Positions 2,152 through 54,736 of a DNA stretch of 64,000 nt are shown in pieces. The stretch is from NCBI GenBank assembly GCA_021371935.1, contig JAJFVF010000006.1, positions 1 through 64,000 of the forward strand, given 5' to 3'. The position numbers and the translations under genes were made by a program. The stretch's first letter is position 1. The number at the start of each line of letters is the position of its first letter. The DNA comes from a bacterium (GTDB lineage Bacteria > Armatimonadota > UBA5829). Under the pieces are notes generated by a model. That model was not told the origin of the DNA and searched no databases. It saw only the letters and a list, made by a program, of their open reading frames with translations.

Positions 2152-3738
2152 TCAGCCACATAATTTGTGATTTATTGTTGCGATTGTTGTTTTTTTGCTG
2201 GCCTTATTTTCTAAAATCTGTACGGCCTCAAGCACATCCTTGGGGGGATTCAGCGCCCGAATCTTACCGATTACAGTCATCGCTTCATCCTTCTTGCCGC
2301 GGTCGACAAGAAAAGAGGCAAGAGTGAGCAGCGCATGAGGGTCTTTTGGCTGTTTCTCGGCCAGAGTGCGGTAGGATTTTTCGGCTTTTTCGTAATCGCC
2401 GGCTTCTTCATACGTCGAACCGAGAGCATACCATGCATCCGGCCAGTCAGAAGCCATCTTGAGAGCCTGGCCGATGGAGTTGACAGAGTCCTGATAGTTT
2501 TTTTGGCGCTTCTGCACACGAGCCAGCAGCAAATATGCAGACGGGCTGTCTGAAGCCATCGTGACAGCCTTCTTTGCATATGTCAGAGCCTTCTCGTAGT
2601 TTTTTTCGTCCGCTAGATAAAAATCAGCAAGCGCAGCCACCGGACGAACATCATCCGGCGCTTCCTCGACTGCTTTTATTAATTCCTTTTCGGCCTCATC
2701 GGCCTTTTTTTGTCCAAGTAAGGCAAAAGCGCGGTTTATATGCAGCATAGGCAGCTTGGGATCTATCTTGCCTGCTGCGTCGAACTCACTTATTGCCTCA
2801 TCATACTTGTCAAGCCCGGTGAGCGCTATACCAAGAACAAGGTGCGGCTGGGCATCGGACGGGCGTAGTTTGACCAGAGACTGCGCGATAGACTGCGCGA
2901 GGTCCGGCCTCGACGCTCCGATCATGGTGTAAACACTCGCTTGCAATTGAAAGACAGCATCCGCATCGGCTCCACGGCTGATTGTTGCCGAAGGCGGCGA
3001 GTACAGCGTGGCAGTGTCAACACCATGCTCGCCGAGCCAGCGCACAATTGCAGTGGAAATTGCGCACCGGCCGAATATCTGATCTTGCCTGCCGCCGGTG
3101 ATTACCATCCGGTTGAGGTACATGCCCACTACCAATGGTCCACGCGCAACTATCGATCCGTCCGGGATAGACTCAGTCGGATTTACATCAATTATAAATG
3201 CCCAATAGTACTTACCGATCTCGGTGACGAATACTTTATCTGCGCTCCAACTGCCAACCATAAGTTTATATGACTCACCGGACTTTTCACGAGTCACGCC
3301 ATATATCTGTGTCGGCCAGCGATTGCCGATGGGGTCACCACTCATAAGCTCGCCCAGTGTTCCCCTTGCAGCCTTTGCAAAATCGCTCGATTGCGCAAAA
3401 GTGACCGACGGCAGGCCGCTTATCGGAAGTTTGAGCAGGGCAAGGTTGAGATCCTTGTCATATGACTTGAGTTCGCACTGATATGCCGCACCAGTATATG
3501 AACTGACAAAGATCGGATGGTGGATCAGATGTGTGGCATCTTTGCCGACATTTTCGCTTATCGAATCATAAGTAGTGACGACCCAACTGCCGTCGCCGAC
3601 CACAAAACACATATTCATCCAGTTCGACCGATCACCAAATACACGGATAACACCCGCGCAGCCGGAAGGTGAATCGGCGGCAGCAGCCGATGCCAAAGCA
3701 ATGATTATAAGTGCGGCAAATATGAGTGCTTTTTTCAT
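2152..3738 (-). CDS. Secreted degenerate trypsin-like domain fused to TPR repeats
   Basis: The 528-residue product starts with a signal peptide (about 1-21, ending SAAAA-DS). Residues ~25-235 follow the layout of HtrA/S1 proteases: a CFVVGDGSWVVTTYD strand pair, then KDLNLALLKL, then PLVVGMYLN. The catalytic residues are not kept. The His of the usual TxxHV motif is replaced in VVTTYDSI, and the GNSGGP loop is absent, with only IPDGSIVARGP in its place. Only the Asp-bearing KDLNLALLKL strand resembles an active enzyme. Residues ~270-510 are TPR repeats (for example PDAWYALGSTYEEAGDYEKAEKSYR). The protein therefore looks like a non-proteolytic binding scaffold in the envelope. It is divergent from the ECF sigma gene starting at 3848, so the two share an intergenic control region of about 110 bp. 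Confidence 0.75.
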   Translation of the reverse strand: MKKALIFAALIIIALASAAAADSPSGCAGVIRVFGDRSNWMNMCFVVGDGSWVVTTYDSISENVGKDATHLIHHPIFVSSYTGAAYQCELKSYDKDLNLALLKLPISGLPSVTFAQSSDFAKAARGTLGELMSGDPIGNRWPTQIYGVTREKSGESYKLMVGSWSADKVFVTEIGKYYWAFIIDVNPTESIPDGSIVARGPLVVGMYLNRMVITGGRQDQIFGRCAISTAIVRWLGEHGVDTATLYSPPSATISRGADADAVFQLQASVYTMIGASRPDLAQSIAQSLVKLRPSDAQPHLVLGIALTGLDKYDEAISEFDAAGKIDPKLPMLHINRAFALLGQKKADEAEKELIKAVEEAPDDVRPVAALADFYLADEKNYEKALTYAKKAVTMASDSPSAYLLLARVQKRQKNYQDSVNSIGQALKMASDWPDAWYALGSTYEEAGDYEKAEKSYRTLAEKQPKDPHALLTLASFLVDRGKKDEAMTVIGKIRALNPPKDVLEAVQILENKASKKTTIATINHKLCG

Positions 3739-3847
3739 AACAATACTCTACCACCAAAAACCGTCGAGTGCAAAATGGGCAAGCAACATCGGTCGAACAT
3801 TTTTGCTTCCTGAGCGTTCTATCACATGTGAGATGTCGGGAGGACGA

Positions 3848-4426
3848 ATGGAAGTACTGACGGACGCAGAGTTGATGGAACTCGTGAAAACCGGTGACTA
3901 TTGTGCATTTGATGAACTCTACAACCGGTACGCTGAGCCTATCCGCAGGTTCCTCTTCCAGCTCACGTGGGATCAGGACACAGCGGAGGATTATCTGCAG
4001 GAGACTTTCTTAAGGCTATATCGGGCGCGCGACCGGTATGAACCGACGGGCAAATTCTCCACGTTTATCTTCCAGATCGCAAAGAACTATTACATCTCGC
4101 AGCGCCGCAAGGCAAAAAACCGTTCCGGAGAGGTATCGCTCGCCCATCAGGACAGCCTGGGAAGAAAACCGTTCGAGAATATCAGGGCAAATGAGCGCAT
4201 AGAGCCTGAGGTCCATCTTATGGAGGAGTATCGCAGGTTTCGGATGCGCCGGGCTATAACCATGCTGCCCGAGGGTCAGAAGATGGTGTTTACTCTCTCA
4301 CACTTCGAGGGTCTCAAATATATTGAGATTGCAGAACTGTTAGAGATACCTGTTGGGACGGTGAAGTCAAGAATGCACGCGGCTGTAAATATGCTCAGGA
4401 CCCTATTACAGGAGGAATACCCATGA
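3848..4426 (+). CDS. ECF-type RNA polymerase sigma factor
   Basis: The 192-residue product has sigma region 2 at ~18-85 (YAEPIRRFLFQLTWDQDTAEDYLQ, which includes the usual DAEDxxQ-like core) and sigma region 4 at ~128-182 (LPEGQKMVFTL, then a helix-turn-helix with IPVGTVKSRM). I chose the ATG at 3848 because GGGAGG at 3838-3843 sits just before it. An in-frame upstream ATG at 3575 would read into the neighbouring gene and adds no sigma-like sequence. The stop overlaps the next start by 4 bp (ATGA at 4423-4426). Coupling to a zinc-finger anti-sigma domain is typical for ECF systems; here that domain sits on an ATPase. Whether this sigma transcribes the operon itself cannot be told from the sequence. 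Confidence 0.9.
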   Translation: MEVLTDAELMELVKTGDYCAFDELYNRYAEPIRRFLFQLTWDQDTAEDYLQETFLRLYRARDRYEPTGKFSTFIFQIAKNYYISQRRKAKNRSGEVSLAHQDSLGRKPFENIRANERIEPEVHLMEEYRRFRMRRAITMLPEGQKMVFTLSHFEGLKYIEIAELLEIPVGTVKSRMHAAVNMLRTLLQEEYP

Positions 4427-5754
4427 ACTGCGAACAGGCCAGAACAGAGATTATCGCTTATCTGAAAGGCGAGCTTTCAGAGGATCAGAAAACAAAGCTC
4501 GAGGAGCATCTTGCCAGATGCCCAGCATGCCGGCACGAACTTGAAGGCGCGCGCAGGCTGCTGACTTGGACAGAGGCCGCATCCGAGCAGGCAATAGTGA
4601 AGAAAGTCGATGACATCATCGACAATGCAATAAAAAGCAAGGCTTCGGATATTCACTTTGAGTCGCAGAGAGATAACACACTGCGAGTCCGTTATCGAAT
4701 TGATGGCGTGATGCACGATATAATGTCGATTGATTCGGCTGAGCGCATAGGGATAGTTACGCGGATTAAGATGATGGCTGATGTGGATACGTCCGAGACC
4801 AGGATCCCTCAGGATGGCAGGATGCCGTGGAAACTGGGCAGTCGAGATTACAATATACGAATAGCGTTCTGCCCATTTACTCTCGGCGAAGGAATTGTGA
4901 TGCGGATGCTTGACAAACGTTCGCCCTTACTCGGTCTCGACAAAATCTACATTTATCAAGATCATCTTCAAACACTCAAAGATTTGCTCCATCAGCCGAT
5001 GGGGATGTTTTTTACATCCGGCCCCACAGGTTCAGGCAAGACCACGACTCTATACTCCACGCTCCTTGAGTTAAATAAACCTGAAGTCAAAATTATGACA
5101 ATAGAAGACCCTGTTGAGATCATGATACCGGGTGTAAACCATTCTCAAATCTGCAAGAAGAACGGCTTTACTTTTGCCACTGCGCTGAGATCATTTTTCC
5201 GGCACGACCCGGATGTCATAATGATCGGCGAGATGCGGTGCATGGAAGACGCCGCTATTTCTATGGAGGCCGCGATATCCGGTCAAATGGTGCTTTCTCA
5301 GATGCACACAAACGATGCAATCGGGGTAATTCAGCGTCTTCGCGATATGGGAATAGAAAGTTATGTGATATCTGCAGCCTTACTCGGCGCAATGAACCAG
5401 CGGCTTGTTAGGCGAGTGTGTCCTGACTGCAAAGAGCGTGTGCTTGAAGTAAACCCAGCTCTGAAAATGCTCAAGATAACCGAGAACGACCTGAAATCAC
5501 ATGAGGTCTTCAAAGGCAAGGGCTGTGACAAATGCCATGGAACAGGCTACAGAGGCAGAGCGGCGATATATGAACTGCTGGTTATAGACCGTCATCTGCG
5601 TGAGATGATTGGCGAAGGCGCACCGTGTGATGAGTTGCTTCAAGCCGCAATATCAAACGGCTTTATGCCCATCAGAGAAGATGCACGGCGTAAAGTGCTC
5701 GACGGTCTGACTACTGCCGAAGAGTCTCTTAGAGTGCTGGCTTTGACTGAGTGA
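4423..5754 (+). CDS. Anti-sigma zinc-finger domain fused to PilB/GspE-type ATPase
   Basis: The 443-residue product has two parts. Residues 1-40 form a zf-HC2 anti-sigma motif with C3, H29, C33 and C36 (MNC... EEHLARCPAC). Residues ~60-443 are a type II secretion/type IV pilus assembly ATPase. They show the N2 signature ASDIHFE and RYRIDGVM (75-98), Walker A GPTGSGKT (200-207), the Asp box TIEDPVE (226-232), Walker B DPDVIMIGEMR (262-272), the His box HTND (295-298), and two zinc pairs C333/C336 and C368/C371. The canonical GEIRD reads GEMRC. The GspE/PilB N1 domain, which docks these ATPases to the inner-membrane platform, is missing and the anti-sigma domain stands in its place. There is no transmembrane segment, and no pilus or secretion genes lie nearby. 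By position it should bind the sigma factor encoded just upstream. ATP-dependent control of that binding is my inference. Confidence 0.88.
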   Translation: MNCEQARTEIIAYLKGELSEDQKTKLEEHLARCPACRHELEGARRLLTWTEAASEQAIVKKVDDIIDNAIKSKASDIHFESQRDNTLRVRYRIDGVMHDIMSIDSAERIGIVTRIKMMADVDTSETRIPQDGRMPWKLGSRDYNIRIAFCPFTLGEGIVMRMLDKRSPLLGLDKIYIYQDHLQTLKDLLHQPMGMFFTSGPTGSGKTTTLYSTLLELNKPEVKIMTIEDPVEIMIPGVNHSQICKKNGFTFATALRSFFRHDPDVIMIGEMRCMEDAAISMEAAISGQMVLSQMHTNDAIGVIQRLRDMGIESYVISAALLGAMNQRLVRRVCPDCKERVLEVNPALKMLKITENDLKSHEVFKGKGCDKCHGTGYRGRAAIYELLVIDRHLREMIGEGAPCDELLQAAISNGFMPIREDARRKVLDGLTTAEESLRVLALTE

Positions 5755-8956: not shown

Positions 8957-9739
8957 CTAATTCACACCGACTTCTTCGTCAGCCAGTTTCTTTATCGCTA
9001 TACCGGCTGCCTTCTTGCCCGAGAGCAGCATGCCGCCAAAGATCGGACCCATGCGAGGTGTGCCGAAGAACTGAGCGCAGGCCATGCCGGTGACAATCAG
9101 ACCAGGATAGACTTCACGAGTGCCATCGACGACACCGTTTTCACCCATTTGTGCGTTCATAGTGTCCTCACCCTTGATCTGGACTATCCCGCGCTTGGCA
9201 AGAAAATTGAGGACTACCGCTTCATGCCCGGTGCTGTCCATCACGATCTTACTCCTGAATGTGAGCGGATCAATTGGAAGATTGGCCATCTTATAGCCGG
9301 TGTCATTTGCCACGACTCCGGCCAAAGCACGGTTATCGTCAAAATAGACGTCCTCTATCGCAAAGAGATTGAGGAGCGTGACACCGCTCTCGATTGCCTT
9401 TTTAATGAGCGCAGAGGCAAGCAAAACTGATGAGACCACCAGATAGCCGTCATGCTCCTTTGCCTCGACATCGATTTCGCGGAGAATGTCGCTGACTGCC
9501 GGTTCGAGGATGACTCTGTTGAAGCCCTTGCCGCCTCCCCAGATTCCACCGCCCGGCGAGAGGCGCTTTTCCATAATGGTGACTTTCTTGCCCTGCTCGG
9601 CCAGAGTATAGCCTGCGACAAGGCCGCTCGGTCCACCGCCGACTATTATCACGTCGGACTCGAGTGAGTCTTCGAGCATGGCGAAGTAGTCGCGCATAAT
9701 CAGCCGCGATACTTCCAGGTCTGAAATGTTTTCGATCAT
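8957..9739 (-). CDS. thi4: Thi4-type ADP-thiazole synthase
   Basis: The 260-residue product makes the thiazole half of thiamine from NAD, glycine and a sulfur source. It shows the FAD/NAD Rossmann motif VGGGPSGL (33-40) and the family signatures EKRLSPGGGIWGGG (57-70), DSTGHEA and PRMGPIFGGM. In sulfide-using archaeal members the segment before the conserved DP reads LHVDP, with His where suicidal yeast Thi4 has its sulfur-donating Cys. Here it reads LPIDP (Pro155). By this alignment neither residue is present; the enzyme should then use external sulfide if active. A GGGGG ribosome site precedes the ATG. A TPP riboswitch lies in the leader, which independently supports the thiamine role. Confidence 0.92.
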   Translation of the reverse strand: MIENISDLEVSRLIMRDYFAMLEDSLESDVIIVGGGPSGLVAGYTLAEQGKKVTIMEKRLSPGGGIWGGGKGFNRVILEPAVSDILREIDVEAKEHDGYLVVSSVLLASALIKKAIESGVTLLNLFAIEDVYFDDNRALAGVVANDTGYKMANLPIDPLTFRSKIVMDSTGHEAVVLNFLAKRGIVQIKGEDTMNAQMGENGVVDGTREVYPGLIVTGMACAQFFGTPRMGPIFGGMLLSGKKAAGIAIKKLADEEVGVN

Positions 9740-9842
9740 TGAATTACCCCCAATGGTCCGTCAAAAGACGGATGATATACTTGGGAGGCAGAGGTGAGCA
9801 TGCGCGGATTACACGCCAACGTGAGGTCTTCCATAGGAGACT

Positions 9843-9942
9843 TCCGCGTTTCCTACGCCGGTATTACCCGGATCAGGTTCAAAGGGATGAAGCGTCATTA
9901 CGCCGCTTCTCTCAGCTGCTCTACCAGCACCCCCAGCGGTTT
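9843..9942 (-). promoter_or_regulatory. TPP riboswitch (thi-box) upstream of thi4
   Basis: Read on the minus strand, the leader contains the conserved thi-box pieces in order: GGGGGTGCT, CTGAGA (9910-9915), then CCCTTTGAACCTGATC and GGGTAATACCGGCGTAGG, closed by CCGC/GCGG. It lies about 100 nt before the thi4 ATG. No obvious terminator separates it from the start, so control may be at translation. Confidence 0.95.
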
Positions 9943-9947
9943 GGAAC

Positions 9948-9983: not shown

Positions 9984-12143
9984 TTACTGTGTAAATAACA
10001 TACATCTACCAGCCTTTGCTAAATAGCGTTGGCATATAAATTGCTCGACACGCCAGGTTGATTCACCACTTGGAGTGAACTCGTAAACGCCATTGGAGCG
10101 CGTCATCAATCCCAATTCGATCATATAACGCCTGGTAGCGCAATAATCCGAACAGACACGGGCAATGCATTCGGTGAGTTCTCGTTCGTCATAGCTACGC
10201 ATCTGGGTCACACCAAAACGCAACACGGCATCGGGTGAAATCATTGCAATCGGGCTAACTTTGCGGCGCTTCGCGGCAAGTCTTTGCTCAACATCTGAAA
10301 GCACCGGCTTTCTATGCGCGACTCCGCCAAATACTGCTTTTGCGGCAACCTTTTGCAATTTGTGATTTGTGCCGCGCATCAGTTCCTGCAGCACAATTTG
10401 CGAACTGACGCTTCCCATTTCACCAAGAGCGGTCACGGCTGCCTCACAGACTTGATTGTCATCACTGGATATCATATCCACCAAGATATGCTCGGCATGC
10501 ACGATTTTAAGCCTGCCGAGGGCTGTTATTGCTGCGGCTTGCTCCTGGGTATCGCCATTTTGAGCGCAGTCGATGAGTTCCTCAGCCGCTGCTGCATCTC
10601 CGATCTCCGACAAAGCAAAAATAGCCGCAAGCCTCACAGCATGGTCCGCATCGTGGAGCATTTCACGGATTAGGCTGGTGTATTTGTCTGCTTTCAAACA
10701 CCCCAATATACGAACAGCCTGACTGCGCAGACCAATGGAGCCACTTTCAGCTATAGCAGCTATCGCCCGGATTATTCTTTCAATCAGGTCTGCGCCTATC
10801 TCTTCGACCATAAGCGTCGGCCACTTTTCCTGGGTGCGCAAGTCGTTCAGAAACTGTTCGCGGCTCGTGTCGACAAAACACGTCGGACAAAGCGACCTGG
10901 CAATTGCTTCACAGCCGATCAGGCCCATGGCTTGACGGTTTTGATCTGCCTCCTCAATCAGCGATAGCATATTTTCGGCGAAGCGCATTCCCGTCCGAAC
11001 CAGAGCATTTATAACCCTGGACGGCTGATCGGAGGATTGACTGATGAACCTCTCCATCAAAACAGGAAAGGCCTGTTCATAGCACATCAACGCATTTGCA
11101 AACAAGAGCGCCGGGCAAGAGTGCTCGGATGCTTCCATCATCTCCAGCAGGACTTCAGCCTTGGCACTGTCGTCTGCCGGGTGGGCAAACAGCCTGTCCA
11201 GAAGCAGATAAGCTTCTTTTGAGGCGATATCCGGCATGCCTTCGCGCGGTGAAACCATCCCGCACCTGGAGGCGTATATCCGCAGAAGCTGGCTCGTCTT
11301 TGAGACTTTATACTCATCATCGGAGAAACGGCAGCTCAGGACCGTGTCAATTGCTTCGCTCCCCAGATGCGGCAGCAGTATCGCAATATTCCGCAGCATC
11401 TCATCCGCATTTGCACCCGCAACCAGATCGGCCAGTCGTCCCGGCGACTTCTTAAGGACCAGAGTCAGGCGCTCAGGCACATTAGGCTCATCGGGAAACA
11501 TCTTCATAAGCACAGCGATTTCGGCCTGCACGACCTCTTTGAACTTGTCGTCAGGCACATCTGGAATCTCTTCGTATTCGGTCATCTGTTCCATTACCTC
11601 TTTCAATGCTTGACGCGCGCGATGCAGGCGGCTCATAACCGTACCCTTGGGCACTTCCAGGAATGTTGCTATCTCATCGTAAGACAGACCCTCGTGATAA
11701 TAAAGCGCTATAACCAAACGGTGAGAAGTTGAAAGTGTGCTCAAGCCATAGGACATGCGTGCATAGATAGAAGAATCCTCATCGCCTTCATCGACTGATG
11801 CGATGTGTTCTTCGACCAACTCCAAGTCTCTCTGCTGATTTTTGCGATACCACATCCGGCAGATGTTAAGCGCTATGGTCTTGAGCCACCCAGCGAACTT
11901 CTCCGGTTCGCGAAGCTGGCTGAGGTTTAGATAAGCCTCCACAAATGAATCGTGTGCAAGTTCCTCGGCATCCGGCACATTGCCGCTCATATTGAAGCAC
12001 AACCGGTAAACCATTGCATAATATCGGTCCATCAGCAGACCAAAAGCCTCATGATCGCCAGACAACACTAATTCAATTATTCTTGAATCTTCCAACTGCT
12101 CTACTCCTGCATCGTTGCGCGTTTCCACATTGAAGATGCGCAA
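9984..12143 (-). CDS. ECF sigma factor fused to a long HEAT-repeat domain
   Basis: Residues ~25-100 are sigma region 2 (YYAMVYRLCFNMSGNVPDAEEL, then FAGWLKTIALNICRMWYRK) and ~135-186 are sigma region 4 (STSHRLVIALYYHEGLSYDE, VPKGTVMSRLHRAR). About 530 residues of alpha-helical HEAT/PBS-type repeats follow (for example LRSQAVRILGCLKADKYTSL, AVRLAAIFALSEIGDAAAAE, VCEAAVTALGEMGS). ECF sigmas are normally ~190 residues, so the HEAT part is an unusually large C-terminal extension that probably senses a protein partner. The 12143 start is a TTG. Another in-frame TTG at about 12095, with GGAG before it, is equally plausible. No anti-sigma gene is adjacent, so control may lie in the HEAT part itself. 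Confidence 0.85.
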   Translation of the reverse strand: MRIFNVETRNDAGVEQLEDSRIIELVLSGDHEAFGLLMDRYYAMVYRLCFNMSGNVPDAEELAHDSFVEAYLNLSQLREPEKFAGWLKTIALNICRMWYRKNQQRDLELVEEHIASVDEGDEDSSIYARMSYGLSTLSTSHRLVIALYYHEGLSYDEIATFLEVPKGTVMSRLHRARQALKEVMEQMTEYEEIPDVPDDKFKEVVQAEIAVLMKMFPDEPNVPERLTLVLKKSPGRLADLVAGANADEMLRNIAILLPHLGSEAIDTVLSCRFSDDEYKVSKTSQLLRIYASRCGMVSPREGMPDIASKEAYLLLDRLFAHPADDSAKAEVLLEMMEASEHSCPALLFANALMCYEQAFPVLMERFISQSSDQPSRVINALVRTGMRFAENMLSLIEEADQNRQAMGLIGCEAIARSLCPTCFVDTSREQFLNDLRTQEKWPTLMVEEIGADLIERIIRAIAAIAESGSIGLRSQAVRILGCLKADKYTSLIREMLHDADHAVRLAAIFALSEIGDAAAAEELIDCAQNGDTQEQAAAITALGRLKIVHAEHILVDMISSDDNQVCEAAVTALGEMGSVSSQIVLQELMRGTNHKLQKVAAKAVFGGVAHRKPVLSDVEQRLAAKRRKVSPIAMISPDAVLRFGVTQMRSYDERELTECIARVCSDYCATRRYMIELGLMTRSNGVYEFTPSGESTWRVEQFICQRYLAKAGRCMLFTQ

Positions 12144-53634: not shown

Positions 53635-54579
53635 TCAGTCGCTGGAAATTCTATGCGAACACTCTGTTGACTGGGCACAATCGGGACCGCACCTGCCGTC
53701 ACAGGGTTCAATGTGGATTGTGACAGCAGTGCCAATGAACCGTTCACGGATGCCTTGTGTGATCTCGTCGGCTATTTGATGAGACTGCTCAACCGACATA
53801 TTCGGGTCCACAAGCAGATGAAACTCGACAAACCTCTCGGAGCCTGCCTTGCGAGTGCGCAGATGGTGGAAACCTTTCACCGTATCAATCTGCGAGAGAT
53901 AATCCACAATCCATCGCTCCTCATCATCCGGCAGACTGACATCCAGCAGGTCGCGGCCGGACTTGACCGTGAGCTCATATGCCGCTCTGATTATCAGCAG
54001 CGCAACCGCCATGGCTGCAACTGGGTCTATCCAGTGGAAATGTTCACCGGGAAACACCGCCTCTGCAAGCCATATCAACCCCAGACCGGCCATTACTCCG
54101 GCTGAAGTATATACATCAGTGCGCAGATGCCAGGCGTCGGCCTTGAGAGCCACGGAATCAGTCTGGCGGCCGACTTTGAAGAGCATGTGAGATACAAACA
54201 TATTGGCCAGAGCGGAGATGAGCATTACTCCAACGCCCCAGCCTACGGATTCCAGTGGTTGGGGATGCAGCAGTTTGTGCACCGCCTCCCAAATAATCCA
54301 TCCCGCGGCTAGAAATATCAGCAGCGCTTCGATGGTACCGGATATATTCTCTATCTTGCCATGGCCAAATGGGTGCTCCTTGTCCGCCGGTTGCCCCGAA
54401 CTCTTAACAGCAAAAAATGCAATCAATGCCGCAAGTAAATCTACACCCGAATGGATCGCTTCGGATATCACCGACACAGATCCTATCAACAAACCTATGG
54501 CCAGCTTCATTATGACCAGGATCGTGTTTGAAACAACCGAAAGCAAGGCTACGCTGGATTTTCGTGACGCGTGGTCCAC
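53635..54579 (-). CDS. Cation diffusion facilitator (CDF) metal transporter
   Basis: The 314-residue product has six hydrophobic segments in its first ~200 residues. The CDF metal site residues are visible in HSGVDLLAALIAF and in WHLRTDVYTSAG (aspartates and histidines). A cytoplasmic C-terminal domain (~210-300) follows. A Cys/His-containing tail (EPCDGRCGPDCAQSTEC) is rare and may bind metal. The start is a GTG with GGAGGG before it. It is preceded by a promoter, a probable Ni/Co riboswitch and a terminator, which supports a role in exporting Co, Ni or a related metal. Confidence 0.9.
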   Translation of the reverse strand: MDHASRKSSVALLSVVSNTILVIMKLAIGLLIGSVSVISEAIHSGVDLLAALIAFFAVKSSGQPADKEHPFGHGKIENISGTIEALLIFLAAGWIIWEAVHKLLHPQPLESVGWGVGVMLISALANMFVSHMLFKVGRQTDSVALKADAWHLRTDVYTSAGVMAGLGLIWLAEAVFPGEHFHWIDPVAAMAVALLIIRAAYELTVKSGRDLLDVSLPDDEERWIVDYLSQIDTVKGFHHLRTRKAGSERFVEFHLLVDPNMSVEQSHQIADEITQGIRERFIGTAVTIHIEPCDGRCGPDCAQSTECSHRISSD

Positions 54580-54607: not shown

Positions 54608-54701
54608 GCCCCGTGGAACCCAATTGAAGTCCCACAGGGCTATACCTGCTGCCTGATATTAAGGCCCAGCCGCACCCCCGACTTGGAGCCGCCTGTTCTT
54701 G
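54608..54701 (-). promoter_or_regulatory. Probable NiCo (czcD-type) riboswitch with terminator, upstream of CDF gene
   Basis: On the minus strand the leader holds, in order, blocks similar to the conserved NiCo/czcD riboswitch core: GAACAGGC (54691-54698), GCGGCTGGGC (54664-54673), GGCAGCAG (54646-54653) and TGGGAC (54629-54634). The last block falls inside a 12-bp terminator stem (54608-54640) followed by TTTTT, so metal binding could prevent termination. The gene behind it is a CDF exporter, the known target of this class. I matched from memory, so the class assignment is likely but not certain. Confidence 0.6.
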
Positions 54702-54707
54702 AATATC

Positions 54708-54736
54708 AGTATATTCTGCAACTCATTTTATGTCAA
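54708..54736 (-). promoter_or_regulatory. Promoter of the CDF/NiCo leader
   Basis: On the minus strand, TTGACA (54731-54736) and TATACT (54708-54713) are spaced by 17 bp. The predicted start site is near 54701, giving a leader of about 120 nt. Confidence 0.75.

Follow-up and report, generated by a model that had tools for sequence, protein, structure and literature searches.

In the window (the whole stretch of 64,000 nucleotides that was analysed), an ECF sigma factor gene is followed directly by a gene encoding a zinc-type anti-sigma domain joined to the core of a PilB/GspE-type secretion ATPase. This anti-sigma/ATPase fusion, tied to an ECF sigma factor, is conserved. No report of a zf-HC2/T2SSE fusion was found in the open-access literature searched. 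Among the regulators of the largest family of alternative sigma factors, ECF anti-sigma factors are the most common, and the sensor domain that such a factor carries determines the signal to which the cell responds. With a secretion ATPase as the sensor, transcription would respond directly to nucleotide state, or to the state of assembly of pili and secretion machines, and the fusion offers a clean genetic system for asking whether pilus ATPases have a signalling role separate from that of powering pili. We consider it slightly more likely than not that the locus is an autoregulated operon of an ECF sigma factor and its anti-sigma factor, whose sensor is a repurposed secretion ATPase gated by the binding of nucleotide or by assembly.

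Organization of the sigma/anti-sigma operon

The original prediction described two ORFs (3848-4426 and 4423-5754) coupled by ATGA, and we confirmed both the coordinates and the overlap of the sigma stop with the fusion start (Table 1). The sigma factor, of about 190 aa, consists of regions 2 and 4 only and is thus of the ECF type (group IV sigma-70). Pfam placed zf-HC2 on residues 3-37 of the fusion protein (40.5 bits, above the cut-off of 22.2; E 2.9e-10) and T2SSE on residues 52-437 (E 3e-114, 382 bits), and hydropathy indicated that the 443-aa protein is soluble. Neither MshEN nor any other N1 docking domain was detected by Pfam, residues 1-53 being zf-HC2. The proposed replacement of N1 by a zf-HC2 motif was thereby borne out, all four zinc ligands being present. 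The secretion ATPase core was indeed complete as predicted, with Walker A (residues 200-207), Asp box, Walker B, His box and both Cys pairs. The contig of the window had no T2SSE or T2SSF match (PF00437, PF00482) besides the fusion, in agreement with the claim that secretion and pilus genes are not near; other contigs of the same genome carry at least three PilB-PilC pairs.

Table 1. Coordinates of the operon, its domains and motifs in the window, and of related genes at other loci
Feature	Position	Strand	Basis
Predicted ECF-type operon promoter: -35 GAACATTTT (3795-3803), 10-nt spacer, -10 GCGTTCTA (3814-3821)	3794..3821	+	conserved motif
Putative ribosome-binding site GGGAGG of sigma gene	3838..3843	+	read from the sequence
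ECF sigma gene, 192 aa	3848..4426	+	Pfam Sigma70_r2 and r4_2, E about 1e-15
Anti-sigma/ATPase fusion, 443 aa	4423..5754	+	Pfam domains; 22 homologous loci; AlphaFold2 mean pLDDT 90.6
Class I anti-sigma domain, residues 1-53	4423..4581	+	zf-HC2, profile and structural matches
N2 domain of T2SSE core, about residues 56-165	4588..4917	+	Pfam, AlphaFold2 model
RecA-like C-terminal ATPase domain with zinc-binding insert	4918..5751	+	Foldseek best PilB/PilF (5tsh, 5oiu), Pfam, motifs
Walker A GPTGSGKT, residues 200-207	5020..5043	+	motif alignment
End of Walker B, GEMRC, residues 269-273 (GEIRD in most relatives)	5227..5241	+	motif alignment
Two Cys pairs of zinc-binding insert, C333/C336 and C368/C371	5419..5535	+	sequence
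T2SSF + degenerate T2SSE third genes (G055b and G063)	L093:8346-10226 and L094:1-1593
MshEN-T2SSF gene, divergent from partner-clade sigma (G064)	L166:1615-3015

Several other features of the window were recorded. The gene divergent from the sigma gene (2152-3738, minus strand) encodes a protein that looks secreted and has TPR repeats and a weak Trypsin_2 match; a similar gene occupies the same place in G004, and none does in G003. A 719-aa ORF (9984-12143, minus strand) has N-terminal ECF sigma regions 2 and 4, HEAT repeats and a C-terminal DUF2087 match, i.e. a sigma factor joined to a large helical extension. Two riboswitches were found on the minus strand, namely TPP (9832-9944, 74.5 bits) upstream of ORF 8957-9739, and NiCo (54625-54710) before ORF 53635-54579, the latter scoring 39.1 bits, barely over the gathering score of 37.

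Conservation of the fusion and its sigma partner

The fusion is present at 22 or more loci, in 21 of the 291 genomes of the phylum and in 13 families. Search with the fusion protein in 61 genomes gave full-length matches in eight besides that of the window, a profile of the N-terminal domain run over all 291 genomes, with inspection of the loci, gave 21 loci, and a search with a partner-sigma profile turned up one additional fusion (G275); the resulting count of 22 is a lower bound. Assembly frameshifts break two copies (G265, G075), and contig ends truncate two more (G267, G043). Since independent orthologs occur in 20 other genomes, the fusion is not an artefact, and a frameshift or assembly error joining two genes, the check raised along with the original prediction, could be ruled out. 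Plasmids searched for the fusion yielded ordinary GspE proteins only, and a single-protein scan of genome contigs gave three matches, each spanning the ATPase core only.

At 21 of the 22 loci, spread over 13 families, the gene immediately 5' of the fusion, in the same orientation, encodes an ECF sigma factor. The expectation that relatives of the fusion always sit beside an ECF sigma factor therefore held at all loci except G262, where the contig stops 350 bases upstream of the fusion and no sigma gene is present in that stretch; loss of the sigma neighbour, named beforehand as a refuting observation, was not seen at the other 21. The partner sigmas formed one clade when compared with 18, and then with 27, other ECF sigmas of the phylum (support 100/99 and 100/97). 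Every member of this clade with downstream sequence in its assembly has the fusion; the G064 sigma, another member, is truncated by the end of its contig. The nearest sigma outside the clade (G062) is adjoined by an ordinary zf-HC2 anti-sigma with hydrophobic stretches, and a close ortholog of the partner sigma was absent from those genomes examined in which no fusion had been detected (G001, G005, G008 and G047). Distances among sigmas and among fusions were correlated (Spearman 0.62, p 0.0023), which we give little weight since controls without interaction reach 0.5-0.6 (PMC7406223).

The N-terminal anti-sigma domain

The N-terminal domain has three helices (residues 3-14, 20-32 and 34-53) and the ligands C3, H29, C33 and C36; this combination of three N-terminal helices with an Hx3Cx2C zinc motif places it in class I (ASDI/zf-HC2). 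A profile of residues 1-72 matched RslA (3.9e-5), RsiW (0.009) and ChrR (0.02), and also DdvA. When this stretch was modelled alone by AlphaFold2 (pLDDT 85.5), its leading structural matches were RslA (Z 7.0), RsiW (6.7), MucA (6.4) and RskA (6.0), with ChrR also matched. The Z values of these matches, from 7.0 down to 4.2, are modest for so small a helical domain, but the top rows are all anti-sigma domains. Thus, by its fold and its sequence relation to solved ones, the N-terminal domain is an ECF anti-sigma domain. Fold, zinc motif and gene pairing together suggest that it binds and holds the sigma factor.

The zinc ligands are retained at 20 of the 22 loci, so that their loss in relatives, another anticipated ground for rejection, was mostly not seen; in G075 and G041 they are gone and the sigma partner is retained. 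Class I anti-sigma groups include both zinc and zinc-free members (PMC7406223). These two loci bear on the alternative that the ATPase is an inert scaffold which multimerises or stabilises the anti-sigma domain, redox or metal stress being sensed by the zinc finger, as in RsrA and ChrR. Redox sensing is indeed frequent among soluble zinc anti-sigma domains (PMC7406223), as this alternative would have it. A zinc sensor is nevertheless disfavoured as a general rule, because G075 and G041 have lost the ligands and kept the sigma.

In the full AlphaFold2 model (pLDDT 90.6), the anti-sigma helix 34-53 is followed, nearly without linker, by the N2 helix 56-71; in the N-terminal stretch modelled alone, residues 34-71 form a single long helix, less confidently predicted near residues 51-60. 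Because the one helix follows the other almost at once, the anti-sigma helices could be displaced when N2 moves, a putative mechanical link.

Relationship and evolution of the ATPase core

The core of the fusion has PilB and PilF as its closest structures (Foldseek; 5tsh, 5oiu) and is 40-48% identical to PilB proteins. With N2 and a RecA-like domain bearing Walker A and B, Asp and His boxes and the Cys insert, it belongs with T2SSE ATPases. It lacks the N1/MshEN domain of PilB/GspE ATPases, which the PilB of G002 does have, and it missed the curated equivalog cut-offs of NCBIfam (454 of 630 bits for TIGR02533, GspE; 435 of 676 for TIGR02538, PilB). In the tree, the fusion cores were separate from 23 PilB-type rows with the exception of G055a. 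The fusion cores alone as one clade were rejected (p-AU 0.009), and a clade of fusion cores and operon companions was not (p-AU 0.265). Because G055a falls among the PilB rows, a second origin or a replacement of the core is possible.

Of 20 assessable fusions, 19 have the Walker A Lys and one, G275, has Arg instead. The Walker B Glu is altered in five of the 20 (G055a, G035, G055b, G257, G275) and retained in all 22 correctly read PilB rows, two others (L030, L033), which were mis-oriented, having been left out of the motif comparison. Catalytic motifs are present in the clade of the window. The predicted change of GEIRD to GEMRC is real, and is specific to a lineage rather than a feature of the family: it is shared by the window and G003 alone, whereas GEIRD is present in most other members, among them G004, the nearest ortholog; GEMRC was accordingly rejected as a family hallmark. 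The altered Walker B Glu in 5/20 relatives points to hydrolysis being unnecessary in some members. Nucleotide binding is probably what has been conserved, Walker A being almost invariant, and since G275 is without the Walker A Lys, even nucleotide binding may not be universal.

Comparison of the window with G004 revealed 77% identity (dN 0.148) in the C-terminal domain of the fusion, as against 96% in the anti-sigma domain and 94% in the sigma factor. Between these two genomes, three PilB cores shared 96-98.5% identity (dN 0.010-0.021). The fusion core thus diverges several-fold faster than the real PilB cores of the genome, with dN/dS of about 0.1, indicating purifying selection. Therefore, the core has escaped strict motor constraint and is still selected.

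These data weigh on two alternatives. The first is the inert scaffold described above, which would account for the fast divergence, the altered Walker B Glu and the loss of the Walker A Lys in G275. Conservation of Walker A in 19/20 fusions and the low dN/dS argue against inertness, and we regard a scaffold as quite unlikely. The second is an ordinary pilus or secretion motor, in which zf-HC2 would be a mere docking domain in place of N1 and the sigma factor a bystander. A complete T2SSE core, with its catalytic motifs in the clade of the window, is what such a motor would need. Against this are the adjacency of the sigma gene and the single clade of partner sigmas, the anti-sigma fold of the N-terminal domain, the fast evolution of the core compared with PilB, the missed GspE and PilB cut-offs and the lack of co-conserved pilus genes (see below), which make an ordinary motor very improbable indeed.

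Pilus and secretion genes near the fusion

Some relatives do carry pilus or secretion genes beside the operon. In G063 and G055b, the third gene of the operon encodes T2SSF (PilC/GspF) modules and a degenerate T2SSE, without membrane-like stretches by hydropathy. The G064 sigma, of the same subclade, has an MshEN-T2SSF gene close by, which brings to three the relatives with T2SSF/PilC-type genes by the sigma. A second T2SSE without zinc finger lies downstream in G022, and in G002 an operon of pilM-pilN-secretin-pilB-pilC-pilin starts divergently beside the sigma gene. The remaining fusion loci, that of the window included, have no secretion genes close to the operon, and pilus genes are therefore not co-conserved with the fusion. 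Such co-conservation had been named as a finding that would overturn the prediction; it was not seen, only G002 having a pil operon alongside.

A reading that competes seriously with nucleotide sensing is that the fusion contacts a platform protein. The ATPase would dock on, or co-assemble with, PilC/GspF-PilB, so that the state of the machine sets the sigma factor and nucleotide is secondary. All the exceptional loci listed above fit this alternative, and the PilB-PilC pairs elsewhere in the genome of the window are possible partners. Most loci, however, are without a nearby secretion gene, one pil operon in 22 loci is about the chance expectation, and a conserved docking surface would restrain a core that in fact diverges fast. 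We consider the alternative unlikely on the whole.

Predicted promoter and regulation

Most of the partner sigma genes are preceded by GAACCTTTT-N10-(G)CGTT or a close variant, a pattern typical of ECF promoters. A strict form of the motif (AACC and, 13-17 bases after the next base, GTT) was present in 10 of 20 regions, compared with a mean of 0.5 and a maximum of 3 in shuffles. In each of five genomes, including that of the window, the only site with at most one mismatch was the operon's own, and weaker sites occurred mostly at the control rate. Because an ECF motif precedes the operon and is the sole site of this quality, autoregulation with a small regulon is the likely arrangement, as far as promoter sequences can tell. 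A weak lead to the regulon is a site common to G000, G003 and G004 before a gene with a 5'-nucleotidase C-terminal domain (G000:C8:13739), as yet an unproven sigma target.

Proposed mechanism

The near-constant pairing of the fusion with one kind of sigma factor points to a secretion motor having been co-opted as the sensor of a gene switch. The original prediction regarded the ATPase as an output domain; it is better described as the input or sensor domain, since the sigma factor is the output.

In the autoregulated operon that we favour, the sigma factor and a cytoplasmic class I zinc anti-sigma would be made together, the anti-sigma domain binding and holding the sigma. A PilB/GspE-type core, out of pilus duty, would replace the usual membrane or redox sensor and would both sense and gate. 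Nucleotide binding, with assembly or domain movement driven by it, may shift the posture of N2 and, through the nearly linkerless junction, the attached anti-sigma helices, whereby the sigma is held or freed. Nucleotide binding is probably conserved in this scheme, and hydrolysis may be dispensable in some lineages. The freed sigma would transcribe its own operon and a few other targets.

A more specific version, which we put forward tentatively and rate somewhat below even, is that a ring of the secretion ATPase displays the anti-sigma domains and holds or frees several sigmas according to nucleotide occupancy and contact with a PilC/GspF-type platform. If true, a pilus motor would serve as a gauge of cell energy or machine assembly that is read as transcription, and the ring would be a new class of sigma-factor switch. 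PilB of Myxococcus xanthus signals apart from pilus assembly, its nucleotide-free form being probably active (PMC5544727), and is a precedent for the operon reading that we favour.

Comparison with known systems

The fusion resembles the class I zinc anti-sigma factors (ASDI/ZAS), such as RslA, RsiW, RsrA and ChrR, in its three-helix N-terminus with Hx3Cx2C and an upstream Cys, in the position of its gene right after an ECF sigma gene and in the predicted ECF promoter before the pair. Known class I zinc anti-sigmas carry membrane, cupin or no extra domains; in contrast, the partner domain in the fusion is a full PilB/GspE ATPase core. With PilB/GspE ATPases (PF00437; 5tsh, 5oiu, 1p9r) the fusion shares N2 and a RecA-like C-terminal domain, Walker A and B, Asp and His boxes and a tetracysteine zinc insert. 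Unlike these, it has an N-terminal anti-sigma domain and no N1/MshEN, is found mostly outside pilus operons, evolves fast and has the catalytic Glu altered in some members. M. xanthus PilB is likewise a PilB-family ATPase whose nucleotide state is proposed as a regulatory signal, but it serves as a true pilus motor and feeds the Dif pathway (PMC5544727), whereas the ATPase of the window is joined to an anti-sigma domain and encoded beside a sigma gene.
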